Of a stretch of 64,000 nt of DNA, positions 3,844-46,430 are shown piece by piece; positions within the stretch are counted from its first letter, which is position 1, and each line of letters opens with the position of its first letter. The position numbers were made by a program, and so were the translations under genes. The stretch is from Dyadobacter arcticus (GTDB taxonomy: Bacteria > Bacteroidota > Bacteroidia > Cytophagales > Spirosomataceae), in assembly GCF_011762185.1 (NCBI RefSeq), contig NZ_JAASQJ010000003.1, forward strand, positions 248,001 through 312,000. The letters are read 5' to 3'. Below the pieces are notes generated by a model. That model was not told the origin of the DNA, did no database searches, and was given only the letters and a program-made list of their open reading frames with translations.

Positions 3844-4584
3844 ATGAAACACATCTGCTACTCAACATTTCTATTACTCATTTTCGCTGTAAAACTAGTG
3901 CAAGCCCAAAGTGAAGAAGAAAAGCTTAAAAGTATTGTGCGGCTCGAATCAGAGTCGTATATGAAAAAGGACTCTGTTACCTGGAAATCGCTGTATAAGC
4001 AGGATGCGAATACGGTCCGTTTTTACGGAGGCAACGGTTTCTATAACCACAATGTTGGCTGGAACAATTTTGGGCCGACGCTCCTAGGCTGGATGAAAGA
4101 AAATCCCAAACCATCCAGCTACACGGCTATCGATATGAAAAACTACAATATCCAGGTGTCCGGTAACCTTGCAACTGTATCTTACACCCAGCGATTTTCT
4201 GCACCTGGTATTGATTCGCTCCGGCCGAGCGGTACATTGGAATACCGAACGCTCGTTAAGGAAGGTCAGAAATGGAAAATTGTTGCAGTAATGTCTTTTG
4301 ATACCTTATCATTTTCCAGCACCCGGCAATCGCTGGTGGAAAGCCAGTTTAATACAACAGGCTATAATTTTCTCAATGAAAAGAAAGTGAAAGAAGCAAT
4401 TGAGATTTTCAAACTGAACGTGACGCTCTACCCTGATTCATGGAACGCTTACGACAGCCTGGGAGAAGGTTACGCCGCTGCGGGTGAAAAAACACTGGCC
4501 ATCCAGAATTACGAAAAATCGATCCAGCTTAATCCGGATAATAGTGCCGGGAAAGAAATTTTGCAGAAGCTGAAAGCAAATTAG
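3844..4584 (+). CDS. Secreted NTF2-like (DUF4440/SnoaL type) protein with C-terminal TPR
   Basis: The 246-residue product starts with a signal peptide (cleavage near VQAQS). Residues about 25-150 read as an NTF2-like alpha+beta fold of the DUF4440/SnoaL kind, ending in the typical GQKWKIVAVMSF strand. Residues about 165-246 form one to two TPR units (YPDSWNAYDSLGEGYAAAG and QNYEKSIQLNPDNSAG). No enzymatic motif is visible. The TPR tail is like the C-terminus of the esterase at 42018. It is divergent from the large fusion gene at 1-3597, and the 246-bp gap is AT-rich and must hold both promoters. Function unknown. Confidence 0.8.
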   Translation: MKHICYSTFLLLIFAVKLVQAQSEEEKLKSIVRLESESYMKKDSVTWKSLYKQDANTVRFYGGNGFYNHNVGWNNFGPTLLGWMKENPKPSSYTAIDMKNYNIQVSGNLATVSYTQRFSAPGIDSLRPSGTLEYRTLVKEGQKWKIVAVMSFDTLSFSSTRQSLVESQFNTTGYNFLNEKKVKEAIEIFKLNVTLYPDSWNAYDSLGEGYAAAGEKTLAIQNYEKSIQLNPDNSAGKEILQKLKAN

Positions 4585-4656
4585 CTTCCAAACAAACGCA
4601 TCTCCGAAAACGTATACTTATATGCGTTCGTGCTTGAATCGAAAACTCTTACGTCC

Positions 4657-4832
4657 AGAGCCAGAGGCTCGTCAGATATCTCAACCCCGGGTTTCAACTT
4701 GGGGCATAGCAGATCAATGTTTGCGACGAGACCGACGGAGCGTACCAGCAGATCAATGTTTGCCAAACTCGGCTTGTTAAGGGTCAACGGATTGAAATCC
4801 GTTGTTAGGAGATCGGTCGAGCCTCTGGCTCT
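4657..4832. repeat. Palindrome-ended intergenic element, copy 1 (MITE/REP-like)
   Basis: A perfect 15-nt inverted repeat bounds the element: AGAGCCAGAGGCTCG at 4657-4671 and its exact reverse complement at 4818-4832. Inside are a degenerate hairpin near 4685-4704, a 17-nt direct repeat (4708-4724 and 4747-4763) and the small stem ACGGAT-TGAA-ATCCGT near 4788-4803. The same ends and core recur at 46261-46430, so this is a dispersed family. No transposase is present. The rest of the 4585-4975 gap shows no gene; short frames in it are accidental. Confidence 0.75.
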
Positions 4833-4975
4833 TTTTGGCAAATCTGAAACGCCTCTGTCGATACTCATCTTTAATATACCGTGATCTTGGTATTGCTTAA
4901 TGAGCACTTCCAAGTGAATTTTGTAGTAACAAACCTTTACAACACATTCAAAATAAACTCATTAAAGCTAAGAAT

Positions 4976-6937
4976 ATGAAAAGAACTTTATTTCTCATTG
5001 CAATTTCTTTTGCGCTGTCATGCCAGTTAACTTACAGTCAGACCTGCCCCGGGTCACTTTCCAGCACGACTGTAACGCCCTGCCTGGGCCAGCCTTTTAC
5101 GATTTCAACACCCTCCTCTGCCGCATTTGGGGGTTCGATCACCTGGGAGGTCGGTACAACCGATTCAGGACCCTGGACATCCGTTGGTACCAGCAATTTC
5201 AGCGGAAATACCGGCGCGGCGAGTTTTACAATCACCCCTGTTGAGGCGGGTGTGCGTTATTATCGTGGCGTCCGTACCTCGTGTACATATGCTGCGATTA
5301 TGGTCACAGTAGGAGCTAGTACCGCGCCATCTCCGCCAACAATTGCTGCGAGTACTTATTGCAACGGGTTGGCCACGCTTACTGCATCCGGGGCCGGCGT
5401 CGGAACGTACACATGGTACCGATTAAATTCGGTTTCACAATTATCACAGGTGCAAAGCGGACCTAGCAACGAATATGCCATTCCAGCGTTGCCAAACGGC
5501 AGTTTTTCTGAATCCTCCTTTCGTTATTACGTCACCTTTTCAAATGGTACCTGCACAAGCAGCGCCAGCAATATTTTGCTGGTGCTGCCCTCAGGAGTCC
5601 TACCGCCCGCTCCCACGATCACAGCGGAATCCGCGTCGGTATGTGTAAACAAATCGACAACCCTTACGGCGACCGGCTCAGGAACAATTAAATGGTATAG
5701 TACAAGCCCAAACACCCCGTTAGGGGAAGGTTCCAGCATCACAATCAGCCCAACCTCGACTAAAAATTATTTCGCAACAAGCACCATTGACGCCTCCTGC
5801 ACTTCAACCGGCAGCAATCAGGTAAATGTAGCACTAGCGTTGCCAACAGCAGTAACCACGGTTCCAAGCAGCCAGGATTTCCCCCCTGGTGGTTCCAGTG
5901 CCAGAGTTCTGACAGACGACAATTGCCAAATTTTCGCCACTTTTGGTGCTTCCGAACCTTTGGGAAGCGAGCTGTATTCCAACACCATCAACGCAAAAGT
6001 CTCCTTCGATAACTCCGTGCAAACTTATAATAAAATGCCCTATGTGCAGAGGCACTTCGATTTTCATCCCACAGAGGAGCTCACACCCGGTTATGCCCCT
6101 TTTTATAGCATTACAATGTATTTCACACAGGCGGAGTTCGATGCATTTAATGTTATCAGCACTGTAAAATTGCCCATGAACCAATCGGATGCGGAGGGTT
6201 ATGCTGCGAACATTCGTATCCTTCATGCCTATGGTACACCCAATTCCCAACCCGCCCGGCCCGGTGATTATTCAGCCAATAACGTGATTGAGGATTGCTT
6301 TGTCTGTACGACGGTCGGCTGGAGTACGGAGTACAATGCGTGGGCGGTGTCCATTAATACACGCGGTTTCTCGGGCTTCTTTATTACCGCAGTAGGATCG
6401 ACTTCCTTGCCCGTAACGCTCACCGCTTTCCAGGGAGCCAGACAGGAAAATAATGTTGCTCTCAATTGGCAGACAACCGATGAAACCAATAGCGACCGTT
6501 TCGAAATCCAGCACAGTACCGATGGTAAACAGTGGATTCAGATCGGACAGGTGAATGCGGCAGGCGAGAGCAAAACTTTACAGCGCTATACATACACCCA
6601 TTCCAATCCCACCGCAGGAGAGAACCTATATAAAATGAAAATGGTGGATGCTGACGGCACTTTTGCTTTTTCGAAGATTGTTTCGGTCCGGATGAATGGG
6701 GTGGATGCATTGAATGTTTTTCCAAATCCCGCGATGGATGTGGTCTCCGTTACCAGCAACGTACCCATTGTTTCTTACCAGTTGTTAGCAACGAATGGTG
6801 AGGTTATCAGGGAAAAAACTCAGGTTAAAACCATTCGGCTGGAACTGGGAAATCTGGCAGCCCCGGCTGGGATCTATGTTTTGAAAATGACTTTGGAAAA
6901 TGGTCAGGTAGAACATCGTAAATTGGTGATCAGGTAA
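4976..6937 (+). CDS. T9SS-secreted Ig-like surface protein
   Basis: 653 residues. A signal peptide (cleavage near TYSQT) is followed by Thr/Ser/Gly-rich beta repeats resembling bacterial Ig-like or PKD-type modules (about 22-300; paired Cys in each), then a middle domain (about 311-485) and the segment LPVTLTAFQG to the end. The last about 80 residues are a type A T9SS C-terminal sorting domain (NVFPNPAMDVVSV ... GIYVLKM ... HRKLVIR). About 340 C-terminal residues are homologous to the protein at 7073, while the N-terminal parts differ. Likely exported through the outer membrane and anchored or released; ligand unknown. Its stop codon overlaps the next start (TAATG). Confidence 0.88.
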   Translation: MKRTLFLIAISFALSCQLTYSQTCPGSLSSTTVTPCLGQPFTISTPSSAAFGGSITWEVGTTDSGPWTSVGTSNFSGNTGAASFTITPVEAGVRYYRGVRTSCTYAAIMVTVGASTAPSPPTIAASTYCNGLATLTASGAGVGTYTWYRLNSVSQLSQVQSGPSNEYAIPALPNGSFSESSFRYYVTFSNGTCTSSASNILLVLPSGVLPPAPTITAESASVCVNKSTTLTATGSGTIKWYSTSPNTPLGEGSSITISPTSTKNYFATSTIDASCTSTGSNQVNVALALPTAVTTVPSSQDFPPGGSSARVLTDDNCQIFATFGASEPLGSELYSNTINAKVSFDNSVQTYNKMPYVQRHFDFHPTEELTPGYAPFYSITMYFTQAEFDAFNVISTVKLPMNQSDAEGYAANIRILHAYGTPNSQPARPGDYSANNVIEDCFVCTTVGWSTEYNAWAVSINTRGFSGFFITAVGSTSLPVTLTAFQGARQENNVALNWQTTDETNSDRFEIQHSTDGKQWIQIGQVNAAGESKTLQRYTYTHSNPTAGENLYKMKMVDADGTFAFSKIVSVRMNGVDALNVFPNPAMDVVSVTSNVPIVSYQLLATNGEVIREKTQVKTIRLELGNLAAPAGIYVLKMTLENGQVEHRKLVIR

Positions 6938-7029
6938 TGTGGTATAAAAACCAAAAAATGGAATGGGTATGGCTGGTCATTTCGGTGCTGGCCATACTCG
7001 TTGCCATTGTTGGGATTTTGATGATGTGA
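6937..7029 (+). CDS. 30-residue single-span membrane microprotein, copy 1
   Basis: The ATG at 6937 shares its A with the TAA stop of the preceding T9SS gene (TAATG), suggesting translational coupling. The peptide starts MWYKNQKMEWVW and continues as a hydrophobic Leu/Val/Ile stretch to two terminal Met: one predicted membrane span with a short charged N-terminus. A second copy lies at 9451-9543 in the same position behind the paralogous gene. The two differ at six of 90 coding bases and only one change alters a residue (Val25 to Ile). That pattern supports a real protein, although recent duplication lowers its weight. I know no family; a role in inserting or exporting the T9SS partner is speculation. 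Confidence 0.6.
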   Translation: MWYKNQKMEWVWLVISVLAILVAIVGILMM

Positions 7030-7072
7030 CTTAGTTAAAGACATTACTTAATTACTACTTGTAAAAACAATC

Positions 7073-9451
7073 ATGAAAAGACAATTGCTTACTATCATTT
7101 TTACGTGGATTGTTCTGTTGTTAAGCGCAACAAATAGCAATGCCCAAAGTTTTGACCAAGAATTGAAATTAGTAGCAGGAGAGCGAAAGCAGAATGCTGT
7201 TTTTGGCAGTTCGGTAGCTATTAGCAGTAGTGGTGATTATGCTGTGGTTGGGGCTCCCGGAGATGTTGGGGCTCCTGGGGAATTCATAAATGGAGGTGCT
7301 TATATCTTTAAGAAAGCTTGTGACGGTAATTGGATCCTGGTCCAAAAGGTAAATGCGCCCCGCGACGTAAGAAGATTCGGAACATCGGTGGCAATTGACG
7401 GCGATGTGGTCGTAGTAAGCGATGATAATAGTGTGTACGTTGTGAAACGCCAGCCAAGTGAAGTATGGGGAATTACCCAGAAATTTACTGGCACCAGTGG
7501 GTTCGGCAATTCGGTAGCTATAAGCGGAGATAACTTTGTTGTCGGGCATTTTTTCGATGATTTTGATCAAAATGGAGCCAATAACCTAACAGATGCTGGT
7601 TCAGCTACTATTTTTAGCAAAGCAACGGGCGGAAGCTGGGTACAGGCGCAAAGGCTGGTGGCTGACGACAGGTTCCCGCAAGAATATTTTGGCAGGTCAG
7701 TATCTATAGGTGGCGATAGGGTGCTGATTGGTGCAATCCGAGATAGATATACTGCCCCTGATGAGTCAAGCAATGCAGCAGGTTCCGCTTATTTCTTTAA
7801 AAAGAATTCCGAAAATCAATGGGTTCAGGAGCAAAAAATCAGGCGGTCAAACCCAGAACTCGGTACAAGTTTTGGAGGCTCTGTCAGCCTACACAATAAT
7901 TACGCAATTGTGGGCGCAGAATTAGGCTACTATTATGACGGGCCTGTTGTAATTCCCACAGGTTCAGCGCATATTTTTGAACTGCAAAATAATGGAGATT
8001 GGGTAGAGGTGCGAAAATTGCTCACCCCTGGTGCGGCAAGTATCAAGGAGCAATACGGACATAATCATGAGCTGTTTGGTCGTAGCGTATCTATCAGCGG
8101 CGGTTATGCGGTTGTTTCGAAGGTTAGCAATCTTACTGGGTCTGGCGGCACGAGGGTCGTAGGAACGGGATTGGCATATATTTACAAACGGGAGAATAAT
8201 GGAGATTGGACCCTGTTGAAAGAAATAGCTCCTGATGACGGTGAAAATGGCGACGTATTCGGACAATCAGTGTTCATTCGTGATGAGGATATTATCGTAG
8301 GAGCGCCTAGTGAGAGAGATCCCGATCCCAACTACCTTTTAGGGGCAGCCTATATTTTTCAGACCCCAGTTCAACCGGAAATAGCTTCTAGCGGAGAAAC
8401 TGAGGACATTATCATAGAAAATAATACTGAAAACCGATTGGTAACCAGCGACTGCGGGTTGATAGGTACGATAACAGGACCGAACATCAGCAACGGTTCC
8501 GATGCTTTCACTGCCAGGGTAACCATTGACGAAGAAGTTCAAACGTATAGTAAACAGCCCTACCTGCAACGCCATTTTGATCTGGAGCCTGGTGTGGCAA
8601 ATCCTTCACTCGCAACCGCAACAGTCACGCTCTATGTCAGCCAGGAAGAATTCACAAACTTCAATGCAGCCAGCACGGTAAAACTTCCGGGCAATGAAGC
8701 AGATCTTGAAAACTACAAGGAAAACCTTCGTATCTGGCAGTGGCACGGAACGCCTACCACGACCCCCAGTGCTCCTGGAAGTTATACCGGCTCAATGGCC
8801 GTGCCAATCGATCCGGCCGATACGGACATCAAATGGATTGAATCGCTGTCCGCATGGGAAATCACGTTTAACGTGGTTGGCTTTTCCGGTTTTTTCATCA
8901 CCGCCGAAAATGCCGAAGCGTTGCCGGTAACATTGGTAAATTTTTCAGGCAAAAAACAGGAGCAGGCGGTACAGCTGGACTGGCAAACGACGGACGAAAC
9001 CAATAGCGACCGTTTCGAAATCCAGCACAGTACCGATGGCAAACAATGGATCCAGATCGGGCAGGTGAATGCGGCTGGCGAAAGTAAAACCTTACAGCGC
9101 TATACATACACTCATGCCAATCCGGCTGCGGTAGAGAATCTTTATAAAATGAAAATGGTCGACCTGGACGGCGCTTTCGCCTTTTCGAAGATTGTTTCGG
9201 TCCGTATGAATGGCACGGATGCATTAAATGTATTCCCAAATCCTGCAACAGATGAAGTCTCAATTACCAGCAAAATACCCATTGTTTCTTATCAGTTGTT
9301 AGCTGCAAATGGTGAGATCATCAGGAAAAAAACCAAGATTAAAACCGTTCAGTTGGAACTGAGAAATCTGGCAATTCCCGCAGGCCTTTACATTTTAAAA
9401 ATGACATTGGAAAATGGTGAGGTTGAACATCGTAAACTGGTGATACGATAA
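7073..9451 (+). CDS. T9SS-secreted FG-GAP beta-propeller protein
   Basis: 792 residues. A signal peptide (cleavage near SNAQS) is followed by about seven FG-GAP/integrin-like blades of the form FG.SVAISG.. VVVGA..... G.AYIF (about 45-430), as in surface adhesins. From about residue 458 it matches the C-terminal half of the protein at 4976: a shared beta domain (QTYSKQPYLQRHFDLEPG), the LPVTL..F module and a type A T9SS sorting domain (NVFPNPATDEVSI ... HRKLVIR). The two genes are tandem paralogues with different N-terminal ligand or adhesion modules. The final A of the stop is also the first base of a microprotein gene. Confidence 0.88.
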   Translation: MKRQLLTIIFTWIVLLLSATNSNAQSFDQELKLVAGERKQNAVFGSSVAISSSGDYAVVGAPGDVGAPGEFINGGAYIFKKACDGNWILVQKVNAPRDVRRFGTSVAIDGDVVVVSDDNSVYVVKRQPSEVWGITQKFTGTSGFGNSVAISGDNFVVGHFFDDFDQNGANNLTDAGSATIFSKATGGSWVQAQRLVADDRFPQEYFGRSVSIGGDRVLIGAIRDRYTAPDESSNAAGSAYFFKKNSENQWVQEQKIRRSNPELGTSFGGSVSLHNNYAIVGAELGYYYDGPVVIPTGSAHIFELQNNGDWVEVRKLLTPGAASIKEQYGHNHELFGRSVSISGGYAVVSKVSNLTGSGGTRVVGTGLAYIYKRENNGDWTLLKEIAPDDGENGDVFGQSVFIRDEDIIVGAPSERDPDPNYLLGAAYIFQTPVQPEIASSGETEDIIIENNTENRLVTSDCGLIGTITGPNISNGSDAFTARVTIDEEVQTYSKQPYLQRHFDLEPGVANPSLATATVTLYVSQEEFTNFNAASTVKLPGNEADLENYKENLRIWQWHGTPTTTPSAPGSYTGSMAVPIDPADTDIKWIESLSAWEITFNVVGFSGFFITAENAEALPVTLVNFSGKKQEQAVQLDWQTTDETNSDRFEIQHSTDGKQWIQIGQVNAAGESKTLQRYTYTHANPAAVENLYKMKMVDLDGAFAFSKIVSVRMNGTDALNVFPNPATDEVSITSKIPIVSYQLLAANGEIIRKKTKIKTVQLELRNLAIPAGLYILKMTLENGEVEHRKLVIR

Positions 9452-9543
9452 TGTGGTATAAAAACCAAAAAATGGAATGGGTATGGCTGGTCATTTCAGT
9501 ACTGGCCATACTGGTTGCCATCATCGGGATTTTGATGATGTAA
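9451..9543 (+). CDS. 30-residue single-span membrane microprotein, copy 2
   Basis: As at 6937, the ATG at 9451 overlaps the stop of the T9SS gene (TAATG). The first 17 codons encode the same residues as copy 1. Silent differences are seen at Ser16, Val17, Leu21 and Ile24; Val25 is Ile. The frame ends at TAA (TGA in copy 1). A single hydrophobic span with a Met-Met end is predicted. Function unknown; position and conservation are the only clues. Confidence 0.6.
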   Translation: MWYKNQKMEWVWLVISVLAILVAIIGILMM

Positions 9544-9557
9544 CTTATTAAAAGGCA

Positions 9558-9587
9558 TTGTCGATCGGCTAATATGCCCTATTTTTA
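9558..9587 (+). promoter_or_regulatory. Probable promoter of the response-regulator gene
   Basis: TTG at 9558-9560, a 19-bp spacer, then TATTTTTA at 9580-9587, a 7/8 match to the Bacteroidota TAnnTTTG box, 17 bp before the start codon. Sequence match only. Confidence 0.4.
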
Positions 9588-9604
9588 GAGAACGACACTC
9601 CTTT

Positions 9605-10219
9605 ATGAATAAATTGCTTATCGTTGACGATCACCGGATTTTTACCGACGGCATCCGCTTTTTAATCGAACATACTACCGACCTGAAGGTAGCAGGTGTA
9701 CTGCATTCCGGAAAGGAAGTTCTCCCATTTTTAGGAGACAACCCTGTTGATATCATTCTTCTGGACATCGATCTCCCCGATATACCTGGCTTTGAAGTAG
9801 CCAAACTGGTGAAGAAATCCCATTCAGAAATCCGGATAGTTGCCCTTTCCATGCTGGACGACATTGGCTCGATGGAACGCATGTTTCAGGTTGGCGCCAA
9901 AGGTTATTGCATTAAAAGCGACGGGCGCGAAGAAGTTTTCAGGGCGATCCGGCAAATCAGGGAAGGGGGGACTTACTGGCCAAAGTCGTATCTGAAATTT
10001 CTGGAAGGCCAGACTGATAAAATCTCCGAAATCCGCCTCACAGATCGCGAGCGCGAAATCATTGCATTGATCTGCCGGGGAAGCACCAGCAGTGCAATCG
10101 CCGAAAAACTATTCATCAGCTCCCGTACTGTGGAAACGCATCGAAAAAATATCTACCGGAAACTGAATGTGCATACGAATGTGGAGTTGGCGCAGTATGC
10201 GAGGAAGCATTTGATTTAG
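9605..10219 (+). CDS. NarL/FixJ-family response regulator
   Basis: 204 residues. An N-terminal receiver domain (1-120) has the acidic pair D8-D9, the phospho-acceptor D54 in LLDIDLPD, and the conserved Lys in YCIKSD. A LuxR-type helix-turn-helix occupies about 140-204 (LTDREREIIALICRG and SSRTVETHRKNIYRKLNV). It is a transcription regulator phosphorylated by a DesK-like kinase, very likely the one encoded 41 bp downstream. Target genes are not evident; the adjacent T9SS genes are candidates by position only. Confidence 0.92.
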   Translation: MNKLLIVDDHRIFTDGIRFLIEHTTDLKVAGVLHSGKEVLPFLGDNPVDIILLDIDLPDIPGFEVAKLVKKSHSEIRIVALSMLDDIGSMERMFQVGAKGYCIKSDGREEVFRAIRQIREGGTYWPKSYLKFLEGQTDKISEIRLTDREREIIALICRGSTSSAIAEKLFISSRTVETHRKNIYRKLNVHTNVELAQYARKHLI

Positions 10220-10260
10220 CAAACGTTATATCCAACGCTATCAATCGATTGACAGTTACG

Positions 10261-13200
10261 ATGAAAATTTACTTATGCCAGATTCTTCTATTCTTATCTC
10301 AAATCAGCGCATTAGCGCAGCCAAGAGAGAAAGCGGGGCTGTACAATCCAGGATCGAAGCAGGACTTAATCCGGTTTGAGCATTTTAATGATGAGAAAGG
10401 ACTAAAATCATCTTTATTCAAAGGCCCCATAAAGTACGATGGTTTTTTATGGATATCTGACATCAATAAGGGTTTGGTCCGCTTTGATGGCCAGGAATTC
10501 AGATACTTTGATATTGCTTTCAGGGACAAGACGGTCAATGCAAATATCTTCTCCATGTTCGTGGATTCGCGGGGCTGGTTATGGTTGGGGGCAACGCAAG
10601 ATTTATATGTATGTCAAGGAGAGCAGGTGCGCCAGCTTGCGAAAGACGGATTCGTGACACAAAAATTGATCGTCGAAAAAATTAAGATACCAGATTCAAA
10701 CCAGACAATTGTCAGCATCAAACAAGATCAATCGGGAGCCATATGGGCAGTTGGAAGCCAGGGGAAGATCTATCGATATGAGGTGAATACAAAGCGGTCA
10801 AGTACTTTTTTGCTTCCTGGATCAGATCAACTTTCTGATATGCAAGTCGACAAACACGGATTGATCTGGATTCTTGGCCAGAAAGAAATTTTTGTTTTTG
10901 ACCCAAAGACTAACAAAGTTTCAGGGTTAGGATTTTCAAAAAAAATGCAGTTCAAAGATCCGGGAAAGTTTTTGACAATAGTGCCAGAGAACGATGGAAG
11001 TTTCTGGATAGCGACGAGAGATGATGGGGTATTTCTGATAAAGCCCAGGAAAATTCCCGGTCAAATGAAATTCACATTTGACTTGCTCAAACAATTTTCA
11101 TGTCCGCATGTCCAGCATATCGCCCGGGACCGAGCTGGCAGGATATGGGCAGGCACGCTCGACGAAGGAATTTTTATATTTGATCCGTCCGCGGAAACGC
11201 TTCAACAGCTCAAAAGAAACAATAAGGATCCCGATGGTTTGGCAGAAAACCAGGTTAATAAAATCTACATAGATGACCAGGATATTGTGTGGGTAGTGCC
11301 TCAATCAGCGGGGTTGGAAAAGTATGATCCGTTGCGGTACCAATTCAGTGCACTAAATTACAACCCGAGCAATCCTGAAAAATCGCTTCCAAACAACATC
11401 ATTAACACACTTTTTGGGACAAAAGGACAACTGTTTATCGCTACACCGGACGGGGTGGTGTGTTTTTCTGCAAAAGATAAAAAGCTGGATCGGGCTGTAA
11501 CCAAGATTTTAGAGCCTTTGGGAAACGAAATTACTGCGATCAAAATCGATAGGAATGGCAACATCTGGTTTGGAGATCAACGAGGTGTGGCACAATACGA
11601 TCAACAGACGCAAAAATTGACATTTTACCCTTTTCTAAAAAAAAGGTTCCGGACTGAAGCCATGTTCGATCTTCTTCTTGTAACAACTGCTGAGAATGAA
11701 ACAGGGCCAGCTCTGCATGAGCTCTGGTCAGTGGATTGGGACGGCCTTTCAAGGTTTGATATTAACACTAAAAAATGGAAGACAGACACGCTGCCAGCGC
11801 TCAGGGATATCAGTCAGAAACCAATAACCTCTGGAATGCAGGACATTAGCGGCGATATATGGCTTGGTACTGGCACAGATGGGATTTACAAGTATGATCC
11901 GGTTCGCAAAAATGTCAGGATATGGAACCAGACATCAAGGCACTTTACTTACTTTCCCGAATTTTTGGAAATTAGGAATAGTATGTGGGTTAGCATTGCC
12001 GGTACTGGTGTTTATGAAATATCCAAAGATGATTTAAAGACTATAAGCCGCTATTCATCGGAGAAAAGAGATCTGCCGGATAAAACGATATCCAACATAT
12101 TAAAGGACAGTCAGGGATTTTTATGGCTTTCAAGTGGAGATGGACAACTTATAAAGTTTCTTCCTGGAAAGGGGATTATAAAGTCGTATAATTCCAGAGA
12201 GGCTTTTTCCAGTCAATATTACTTTAATGATGGTTTCAGCCACCCGGATGGGACCTTGTATTTTGGGGGAAACAGGGGCGTGACGTATTTCAATCCGAAG
12301 GATTTAAAGACTAATAATTTCGTTCCGCCAGTAAAAATTACAGATGTTACGGTCACGGATAGCGCCTATTCACCCCGGAACGGTGAACTTGAACTGCTGC
12401 ATAATCAGAATTTTATCACTTTTCAATTCACTGCCCTGAATTTTTCTTACAGCGATAAAAACCAATATCAATATAAGATGGATGGCATAGATGAGAGATG
12501 GATCCACGCAGGCTCCAAACGCGAAGCCAACTACACCAACCTCCCGCCGGGCGAATACACATTCAGGGTGATCGGCAGTAATAATGATGGCATCTGGAAC
12601 AAAAAAGGCGCTTCCATAAAAATCACGATCCTGCCACCCTGGTGGGGAACATGGTGGTTCAGGACATTATTGATCCTGCTTTTCGCAGGCGGAATTTTCG
12701 GCTTGTTCAGATATCGTTTATCACAACAGCTAAGCAGGCGCGAGGCGGAGATCAGGGCATCATTAATGGCGCAGGAAGCGGAGCGTCAGCGATTTTCGCG
12801 TGAGTTGCATGATGGGATCGGGGCTAATCTTTCTCTCCTTAAAATGTATTTATCATCATTCGGGGAAGCAGACATTCCGATGGCAGAACTCAAAGAACGC
12901 GCTGAAAAACTTCTGGCAGGTTCTGTCGATGAAATAAGAAGATTGATTCACGACATGCACCCGCGGAACCTGAAAGAAATGGGTTTAGTGAATGCGGTCG
13001 AGGATATGGTCGGCCTGGTCAATATGGGTGATGGAGTGAAAGTGATTTTTAATTCCATGAATGTCCCCGAACATTTACCTGAGCAGGTAGAGATCAATCT
13101 TTTCCGTATCGTGCAGGAGCTTTTGCAGAATGCAATGAAACATTCGCGGGCAGAGAATGCGTGGCTATATCTGGATGATTATGAGGAAGTTAGACTGATA

Positions 13201-13365
13201 TTGCGTTACCGGGATAACGGAGCTGGTTTTGAACCATCTGCAAAAGTTTCCGGAAATGGATTGCTCAACATTCAAAACCGGGTCACACTGCTGAAAGGGG
13301 AGATCCGTATCGATTCGGAGAAGGGGAAGGGTACTGGAATTGAGATAAGTGTTCCAGTACTTTAA
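10261..13365 (+). CDS. Sensor histidine kinase with two-component-propeller periplasmic sensor
   Basis: I chose the ATG at 10261 because it starts directly with a signal peptide (MKIYLCQILLFLSQISALAQ); a TTG 12 bp upstream is in frame. The 1034-residue protein has a large periplasmic region of repeated reg_prop blades (patterns such as GWLWLGA, GNIWFGDQ, GDIWLGTGTDGI), a Y_Y_Y domain (YQYKMDGIDERWIHAG ... PPGEYTFRVIGSN), one membrane span (about 795-820), a HisKA_3 dimerisation box with the phospho-His in RELHDGIGANLS (about 850), and an HATPase_c domain (LLQNAMKHS; DNGAGFEP; GNGLLNIQNR). This is the sensor layout of hybrid two-component systems but without the fused receiver and AraC domain; the partner regulator is encoded just upstream. 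Confidence 0.92.
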   Translation: MKIYLCQILLFLSQISALAQPREKAGLYNPGSKQDLIRFEHFNDEKGLKSSLFKGPIKYDGFLWISDINKGLVRFDGQEFRYFDIAFRDKTVNANIFSMFVDSRGWLWLGATQDLYVCQGEQVRQLAKDGFVTQKLIVEKIKIPDSNQTIVSIKQDQSGAIWAVGSQGKIYRYEVNTKRSSTFLLPGSDQLSDMQVDKHGLIWILGQKEIFVFDPKTNKVSGLGFSKKMQFKDPGKFLTIVPENDGSFWIATRDDGVFLIKPRKIPGQMKFTFDLLKQFSCPHVQHIARDRAGRIWAGTLDEGIFIFDPSAETLQQLKRNNKDPDGLAENQVNKIYIDDQDIVWVVPQSAGLEKYDPLRYQFSALNYNPSNPEKSLPNNIINTLFGTKGQLFIATPDGVVCFSAKDKKLDRAVTKILEPLGNEITAIKIDRNGNIWFGDQRGVAQYDQQTQKLTFYPFLKKRFRTEAMFDLLLVTTAENETGPALHELWSVDWDGLSRFDINTKKWKTDTLPALRDISQKPITSGMQDISGDIWLGTGTDGIYKYDPVRKNVRIWNQTSRHFTYFPEFLEIRNSMWVSIAGTGVYEISKDDLKTISRYSSEKRDLPDKTISNILKDSQGFLWLSSGDGQLIKFLPGKGIIKSYNSREAFSSQYYFNDGFSHPDGTLYFGGNRGVTYFNPKDLKTNNFVPPVKITDVTVTDSAYSPRNGELELLHNQNFITFQFTALNFSYSDKNQYQYKMDGIDERWIHAGSKREANYTNLPPGEYTFRVIGSNNDGIWNKKGASIKITILPPWWGTWWFRTLLILLFAGGIFGLFRYRLSQQLSRREAEIRASLMAQEAERQRFSRELHDGIGANLSLLKMYLSSFGEADIPMAELKERAEKLLAGSVDEIRRLIHDMHPRNLKEMGLVNAVEDMVGLVNMGDGVKVIFNSMNVPEHLPEQVEINLFRIVQELLQNAMKHSRAENAWLYLDDYEEVRLILRYRDNGAGFEPSAKVSGNGLLNIQNRVTLLKGEIRIDSEKGKGTGIEISVPVL

Positions 13366-46260: not shown

Positions 46261-46430
46261 AGAGCCAGAGGCTCGACCAATTTCCTGACTCCGGATTTCA
46301 ATCCGGAGAGTCCAGCAAAAGCAGGTTAGTAGATAGTTGCAGGCCCAATCGTTATGGCGGTCCGCCTGCGATTTTTTTGGCTGCACGGATTGAAATCCGT
46401 GGTTATAGGATCGGTCGAGCCTCTGGCTCT
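46261..46430. repeat. Palindrome-ended intergenic element, copy 2 (MITE/REP-like)
   Basis: A perfect 18-nt inverted repeat: AGAGCCAGAGGCTCGACC at 46261-46278 and its complement at 46413-46430. Inside lie two perfect hairpins, CTCCGGAT-TTCA-ATCCGGAG (46289-46308) and CACGGAT-TGAA-ATCCGTG (46384-46401), which are themselves near reverse complements of each other, so the element is a nested palindrome. It shares ends and core with 4657-4832. No transposase or obvious target duplication. Confidence 0.78.

Follow-up and report, generated by a model that had tools for sequence, protein, structure and literature searches.

Among the closest described counterparts of the genes reported here is MgrB, the 47-residue inhibitor of the sensor kinase PhoQ in enterobacteria. 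MgrB illustrates how a membrane peptide can govern a sensor kinase, aided by its membrane span (PMC8404706, PMC2789325), and in PMC8404706 the span is described as mediating the interaction with PhoQ, two N-terminal lysines and W20 as important, and the periplasmic region as needed. Two other small proteins bear on the arrangements described below: UgtS, which is reported to be encoded in a two-gene operon with a single transcript from which both genes can be translated (PMC8896665), and a 29-residue toxin of a type I toxin-antitoxin system (PMC6811638).

Genome annotation readily overlooks proteins as short as 30 residues. In the window, by which we mean the whole 64,000-nucleotide stretch of the Dyadobacter arcticus genome that was analysed, an initial annotation had pointed to two similar 30-codon frames, each overlapping the end of a T9SS gene, and had proposed that they encode a partner of this T9SS family. 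We find that the two frames are real, conserved microprotein genes under purifying selection, and that their recurrent neighbour across genera is a sensor kinase and response regulator locus instead.

Twin 30-codon genes and their homologues

The features of this part of the window are as follows.

4976..6937, + strand: gene for T9SS-exported protein a, with an Ig_7 domain and a type A sorting domain (Pfam, NCBIfam)
6466..7029 (start approximate), + strand: duplicated cassette copy 1, comprising linker, T9SS sorting domain and microprotein (repeat search, identity profile)
6937..7029, + strand: microprotein gene copy 1, 30 codons plus stop, predicted single-span membrane peptide (ORF, own-genome search, homologues, AlphaFold2 model)
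7073..9451, + strand: gene for T9SS-exported protein b, with FG-GAP_2 repeats and a type A sorting domain (Pfam, NCBIfam)
8980..9543, + strand: duplicated cassette copy 2 (repeat search, identity profile)
9451..9543, + strand: microprotein gene copy 2, 30 codons plus stop, one residue different from copy 1

Both T9SS genes, which carry type A sorting domains (PF18962 / TIGR04183), end in TAATG, with the last A of the TAA stop serving as the first base of the microprotein ATG. The two microprotein copies differ at six of 90 coding bases with one amino acid change: the differences in codons 16, 17, 21, and 24 are synonymous, codon 25 has two changes (V to I), and a TGA/TAA difference in the stop codons lies outside these six. 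All of this agrees with the initial annotation, and its remark that the changes are mainly silent holds up in numbers, as the 18 synonymous sites carry 5 changes and the 72 non-synonymous sites carry 1 (Fisher p = 0.001). Comparison of the two copies shows purifying selection on the T9SS tail as well (pS 0.50, pN 0.07). Identity between the cassette copies is 86% in the linker, 81% in the sorting domain, and 93% in the peptide, with 46% on either side, so the duplicated unit ends at the peptide stop. These two copies are the only matches to the microprotein in the D. arcticus genome.

Two small repeats were also observed in the window, at 4657-4832 and 46261-46430. These elements of 176 and 170 bp have perfect terminal inverted repeats, AGAGCCAGAGGCTC, with conserved ends and diverged middles. 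The terminal repeat has 4 matches in the window against 0.03 expected, the element at 4657-4832 folds strongly (z -4.3), and the exact pattern is absent among 139 other loci examined. The pair looks like a small repeat element.

Profile searches found the microprotein in 10 of 222 Spirosomataceae genomes, spanning six genera, with 11 copies in total, one per genome except for the two in the window genome. The carriers are:

Window genome: Dyadobacter arcticus
G014: Dyadobacter
G036: Dyadobacter sp. CY312
G037: Dyadobacter sp. CY261
G133: Fibrella aquatilis
G158: Larkinella punicea
G181: Rudanella MAG
G182: Runella aurantiaca
G208: Spirosoma endophyticum
G214: Spirosoma

The three Dyadobacter relatives were found in a search of 48 genomes of the genus. 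All 11 copies are exactly 30 codons long from ATG to stop, and the one in CY312 has an additional in-frame ATG three codons upstream. The family profiles imposed no length; for several copies the first matches were partial (residues 1-28, 4-28, 8-30, and 10-30), yet the ends are residues 1 and 30. A degenerate pattern that did impose 30 codons matched seven loci in a collection of 84,980 species, all of them in Spirosomataceae (CY261, CY312, F. aquatilis, L. punicea, the Rudanella MAG, R. aurantiaca, and S. endophyticum).

The initial annotation had suggested that frameshifts or stops in homologous loci be looked for and that dN/dS be computed. The 30-codon frame is open in all 10 carriers, although decayed copies below the search threshold could be missed, and dS is above dN in all 10 pairs formed by the two window copies and the three Dyadobacter relatives. 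A frame left open by chance after the duplicated end of a gene would be compatible with the short length alone, but it does not account for homologues of identical length in six genera with dS above dN, and we therefore rule it out as having practically no chance of being correct.

The searches had a substantial background. With the A1 profile, 32 of the 222 family genomes gave matches at E <= 0.01, and with the A2 profile 41 of 222 did so at E <= 0.05; these are mostly background, many of them in long frames, and some were read. With the A3 profile we excluded G169, whose match (E = 0.0027) lies inside a 584-residue frame. The A2 and A3 E-values are flattering for earlier hits because the profiles were built from those hits. 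In the genus search, matches from six of ten genomes (E 0.02-0.9) and a second match in G014 were dropped before counting, two of them having been read and found unlike the microprotein and the rest judged from frame length; none of these six genomes came back at E <= 0.003 with the A3 profile. No further member was found in a scan of the order (390 genomes), where three matches with E 1e-4 to 9e-4 sit in frames of 296-812 residues, or in a scan of the class (375 genomes), which gave nine matches outside the family at E 0.001 to 0.009. Four of these nine were examined and are pieces of 47-123-residue frames.

We could not assign the microprotein to a known family. The window copies have no Pfam match at E <= 0.001 and no NCBIfam match at E <= 0.1, and nine microprotein sequences searched against Pfam at E <= 1 matched only other families below the cut-off (best E 0.036). 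Of four sequences compared with PHROGs, three had E-values of 0.026-0.56 to stretches of profiles with 56-162 positions, below the cut-off, and the fourth had none. A mobile carrier was rejected as well, with no exact pattern match in viral contigs and no match in plasmids. Rfam gave no match in 4500-10500, a search that an undescribed antisense RNA could escape. No report of the microprotein was found in the open PMC papers searched; small-protein prediction catalogues, such as that of PMC11364881, could contain it unnamed. With homologues in 10 genomes and no match in the literature and family libraries searched, the proposal that this is a genuine, undescribed membrane microprotein is upheld.

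The sequences have a simple anatomy. The first ten residues have a net charge of +1 to +4, giving a basic N-terminus, and 10 of the 11 copies have no charged residue between positions 11 and 30. AlphaFold2, run on nine sequences, predicts a single helix over residues 2-29 (mean pLDDT 86), and the chain ends inside this predicted helix. Under the positive-inside rule, the basic end of a membrane protein is cytoplasmic, which would place the N-terminus of the microprotein in the cytoplasm, with residues about 11-30 as the membrane helix. Residues 16, 19, 23, and 26 are small in every carrier genome (S, A, A or G, and G, respectively). Their 3-4-3 spacing puts them on one helix face, and 2.6% of random four-position sets in 11-30 cluster equally. 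L13 is invariant, and W12 is present in 8 of the 10 genomes.

The T9SS genes upstream

A general partnership with T9SS proteins, as originally proposed, is rejected on counts. In D. arcticus we counted 89 matches to the T9SS tail (E <= 0.001) and two microprotein copies. We inspected 30 of the 89 gene ends and found no similar frame behind any of them; one other TAATG opens 22 unrelated codons. The microprotein itself contains no T9SS sorting domain and matches no known T9SS family in Pfam or NCBIfam. Homologues of the window T9SS genes are upstream of the peptide at the four Dyadobacter loci only, and none was found in the regions examined around the peptide in the six non-Dyadobacter carriers.

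Within Dyadobacter the placement varies. In CY312 the T9SS gene is complete, with its end 70 bp ahead of the microprotein, and CY261 has a complete T9SS gene whose end is 936 bp ahead of it. In G014 the T9SS gene stops 8 bp before the microprotein and lacks a sorting domain, and the microprotein is intact. The TAATG overlap is thus confined to the window copies, and the microprotein can outlive the sorting domain. In CY261 (L092:7754-8077, + strand) we also observed an incomplete sorting-domain match, below the cut-off (E = 1e-4), directly before the microprotein, and the two share one 108-residue open frame with no stop between them.

These arrangements bear on a narrower idea, in which the microprotein assists the adjacent exported product by tethering it to the membrane, helping its export, or acting as its chaperone, and the kinase described below owes its proximity only to its control over that product. 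It would fit the overlap in both window copies, the duplication of the microprotein along with the T9SS tail and the purifying selection on both copies, the T9SS homologues upstream at four of four Dyadobacter loci, the shared open frame in CY261, and a large protein (1553-1588 residues, 54% identical) adjacent to the microprotein in Fibrella and Runella. It fits less well with 89 tails for two microprotein copies, with an intact microprotein in G014 where the sorting domain is missing, with the six non-Dyadobacter genomes, where the regions examined have no such T9SS homologue, and with S. endophyticum, where the gene directly upstream is the kinase. On balance we consider this idea unlikely. 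The joint duplication and retention of microprotein and T9SS tail make a local T9SS-linked role in Dyadobacter possible.

The large protein is an observation in its own right. In Fibrella (L087:8000-12763, minus strand) and Runella (L085:8219-12877, minus strand), it is the about 1250 N-terminal residues that are 54% identical, and the C-terminal domains differ (Peptidase_M23 versus OmpA), a pattern that, judged from the sequences, is like that of exchangeable-tail proteins. By eye, the N-terminus has no obvious signal peptide.

The sensor kinase and response regulator locus

Downstream of microprotein copy 2, the window contains the following features.

9544..9604, + strand: spacer, with the element TATTTTTAG in three of four Dyadobacter genomes and TAATTTTAA in the fourth (alignment)
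9605..10219, + strand: response regulator gene, receiver and LuxR-type HTH domains (Pfam)
10249..13365, + strand: sensor histidine kinase gene, Reg_prop/Y_Y_Y/HisKA_3/HATPase_c (Pfam), with an ATG at 10261

Reg_prop sensors are common in Bacteroidota. For copy 2 in the window and in the three Dyadobacter relatives, the microprotein ends 61-66 bp upstream of the LuxR-type regulator. At E <= 1e-50 this regulator was found only in these 4 of 59 relatives, and at E <= 1e-48 it was found in 13 of 222 family genomes, including 7 of the 10 microprotein carriers (Fisher p = 4e-8, ignoring shared descent). The kinase orthologous group was defined in the 222 family genomes with the S. endophyticum kinase as query at E <= 1e-150. 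Fifteen genomes have an orthologue, comprising 8 of the 10 microprotein carriers versus 7 of the 212 others (Fisher p = 2e-9, ignoring shared descent). In six of those eight genomes the orthologous kinase is less than 5 kb from the microprotein, with gaps of 0.1, 0.7, 0.7, 0.9, 4.3, and 4.9 kb. Each of the carrier genomes has only 8-23 HisKA_3 matches of any group, which makes one within 8 kb of the microprotein a 2-5% event, and 7 of the 10 carriers have one at this distance. Outside Dyadobacter, this is the case in 4 of 6 carriers (p = 4e-5), where the Larkinella kinase belongs to another group.

The order of the genes differs among genomes. The window, G014, and CY261 have the order T9SS-peptide-regulator-kinase. 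In Fibrella the order is regulator, kinase, a gene for 1588 residues, and, after 1 bp, the peptide; in Spirosoma G214 it is regulator, kinase, four genes, and the peptide, with a last gap of 35 bp; and in S. endophyticum the kinase is itself the gene directly upstream, 123 bp before the peptide, and no regulator was found at E <= 1e-48. In these last three genomes a gene that we judged by eye to be AraC-type is upstream of the kinase, not always adjacent to it. In Rudanella, a fragment cut off by the contig end is 1.4 kb upstream of the microprotein, beyond an opposite-strand gene, and resembles the orthologous kinase (58% over 158 residues). In Larkinella, the orthologous kinase and regulator are 22 kb from the microprotein and the pair near it is a different one. 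Since the gene just upstream is on the other strand in both Rudanella and Larkinella, the microprotein there does not follow the kinase within a shared operon. In CY312 the orthologous kinase is on another contig than the microprotein, and in Runella, where the contig ends 182 bp upstream of the microprotein, no orthologous kinase was found at E <= 1e-150.

We noted three further details of these loci. The kinase of G014 (L084:8664-11720, + strand) is split by an in-frame TAG, while the microprotein is intact. Three of the genes between kinase and microprotein in Spirosoma G214 (L089:8394-12228, minus strand) encode 265, 408, and 591 residues and have no Pfam match at E <= 0.001. The propeller part of the window kinase (10249-13365) matches the T9SS PorZ model NF052228 with 75.8 of 260 bits, which is below the cut-off and probably reflects shared propeller repeats.

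A peptide of this size could also act by depolarising the membrane, for instance as the toxin of a type I toxin-antitoxin pair. It is small and hydrophobic as type I toxins are, and its length, single predicted span, patchy distribution, and tandem copies in the window would all suit a toxin, for which the 29-residue example mentioned above (PMC6811638) is a precedent; in Rudanella and Larkinella it is a solitary gene preceded by one on the opposite strand. Elsewhere it comes directly after another gene (with a 1-base overlap in the window and gaps of 1 bp in Fibrella and 35 bp in Spirosoma G214), which is not how a toxin transcribed with a leader of its own would be placed. The absence of Rfam matches in 4500-10500, of exact pattern matches in viral contigs, and of plasmid matches also speaks against a toxin, and the linkage to one kinase group would be left unexplained. 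We regard the toxin explanation as improbable.

The association between kinase and microprotein is not obligatory. Seven of the 15 kinase-bearing genomes and 6 of the 13 regulator-bearing genomes lack the microprotein, and no undetected peptide was found near the kinase in those seven. On a kinase tree, microprotein presence is scattered, with 5 changes against a mean of 5.3 for shuffled labels, and so no better clustered than these. The microprotein is therefore at most accessory to the kinase. By eye, the alignment of the kinase membrane helix has nothing unique to the genomes that carry the microprotein. A kinase so often without the microprotein would be expected if the peptide were a self-assembling or structural membrane peptide, or a small subunit of some other complex, and were linked to the kinase by co-regulation only; the S16/A19/A23/G26 face would serve self-association as well as docking. 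No third common partner was seen among the annotated neighbours, which are part of all neighbours, and we think this explanation, too, is rather unlikely.

A putative accessory modulator and its known counterparts

That the microprotein is found beside one kind of sensor kinase suggests that it may tune this kinase, and its fixed length, helix face, and linkage fit docking on a partner helix, for which the kinase is the best candidate. We tentatively favour, at somewhat short of an even chance, the reading that it is an accessory single-span inner-membrane part of the Reg_prop/Y_Y_Y/HisKA_3 kinase locus, docking on the kinase and modulating its output. The locus would consist of one kinase orthologous group, mostly with a LuxR-type regulator, and in many cases with a large product of varying identity encoded next to these two or between them, which in Dyadobacter is T9SS-exported. 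The basic N-terminus would stay in the cytoplasm while residues about 11-30 span the membrane, and the S16-A19-A23-G26 face would pack onto a partner helix in the membrane, with the kinase helix as the likeliest candidate; docked there, the microprotein would modulate the output of the kinase. Where the gene is behind one for an exported protein, translational coupling would tie the amount of microprotein to that product, providing feedback.

A kinase role alone does not explain why the window retains two copies, each with its T9SS gene. The spacer element at 9544..9604 (TATTTTTAG or TAATTTTAA) presumably fits the Bacteroidota promoter pattern, and on its sequence it is possibly the promoter of the regulator gene. 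If the regulator has its own promoter, the microprotein in Dyadobacter may be carried on the T9SS transcript, apart from the kinase, and for this reason we keep an export-tied role, or feedback from export to signalling, as a reading. In its fullest form, the microprotein would report export to signalling: its translation would be coupled to that of the exported protein, its small-faced helix would adjust the neighbouring propeller-type kinase, and the cell would thereby gauge how much exported product is made, with the kinase and regulator locus carrying the helix alongside interchangeable cargo genes in different genera. We give this version only a slim chance.

If the accessory modulator reading is true, the Reg_prop class of sensors would have a microprotein modulator that evolved independently of MgrB. 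It can be tested at once, given the fixed length, clear helix signature, defined family range, and candidate partner.

Several known systems are close to this locus without matching it. The window microproteins are directly behind genes for T9SS type A cargo (PF18962, TIGR04183), yet have no sorting domain themselves, and the 30 of 89 T9SS gene ends inspected have no microprotein-like frame behind them. Reg_prop/Y_Y_Y/HisKA_3 kinases with LuxR-type regulators are the recurrent neighbour, with one orthologous group linked, and a carrier genome has 8-23 HisKA_3 kinases versus one microprotein copy (two in the window genome). The 29-residue Lpt and other type I toxins have a similar length and a single hydrophobic helix, but the microprotein is linked to a two-component locus and at several loci is directly behind other genes. 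Like MgrB, the 47-residue PhoQ inhibitor of enterobacteria, it has a single span, a link to a sensor kinase, basic residues at the N-terminus, and a tryptophan within or at the span. MgrB has a periplasmic region, whereas the chain of the Spirosomataceae microprotein ends within the predicted helix, and the two are set apart by Pfam and NCBIfam searches without a match, not by direct sequence comparison. Unlike the mgrB case, the microprotein gene is inside the kinase locus or behind a gene for an exported protein, and its binding to the kinase is putative. In the reading favoured here, the microprotein would work as MgrB does on PhoQ, without being a relative of MgrB.
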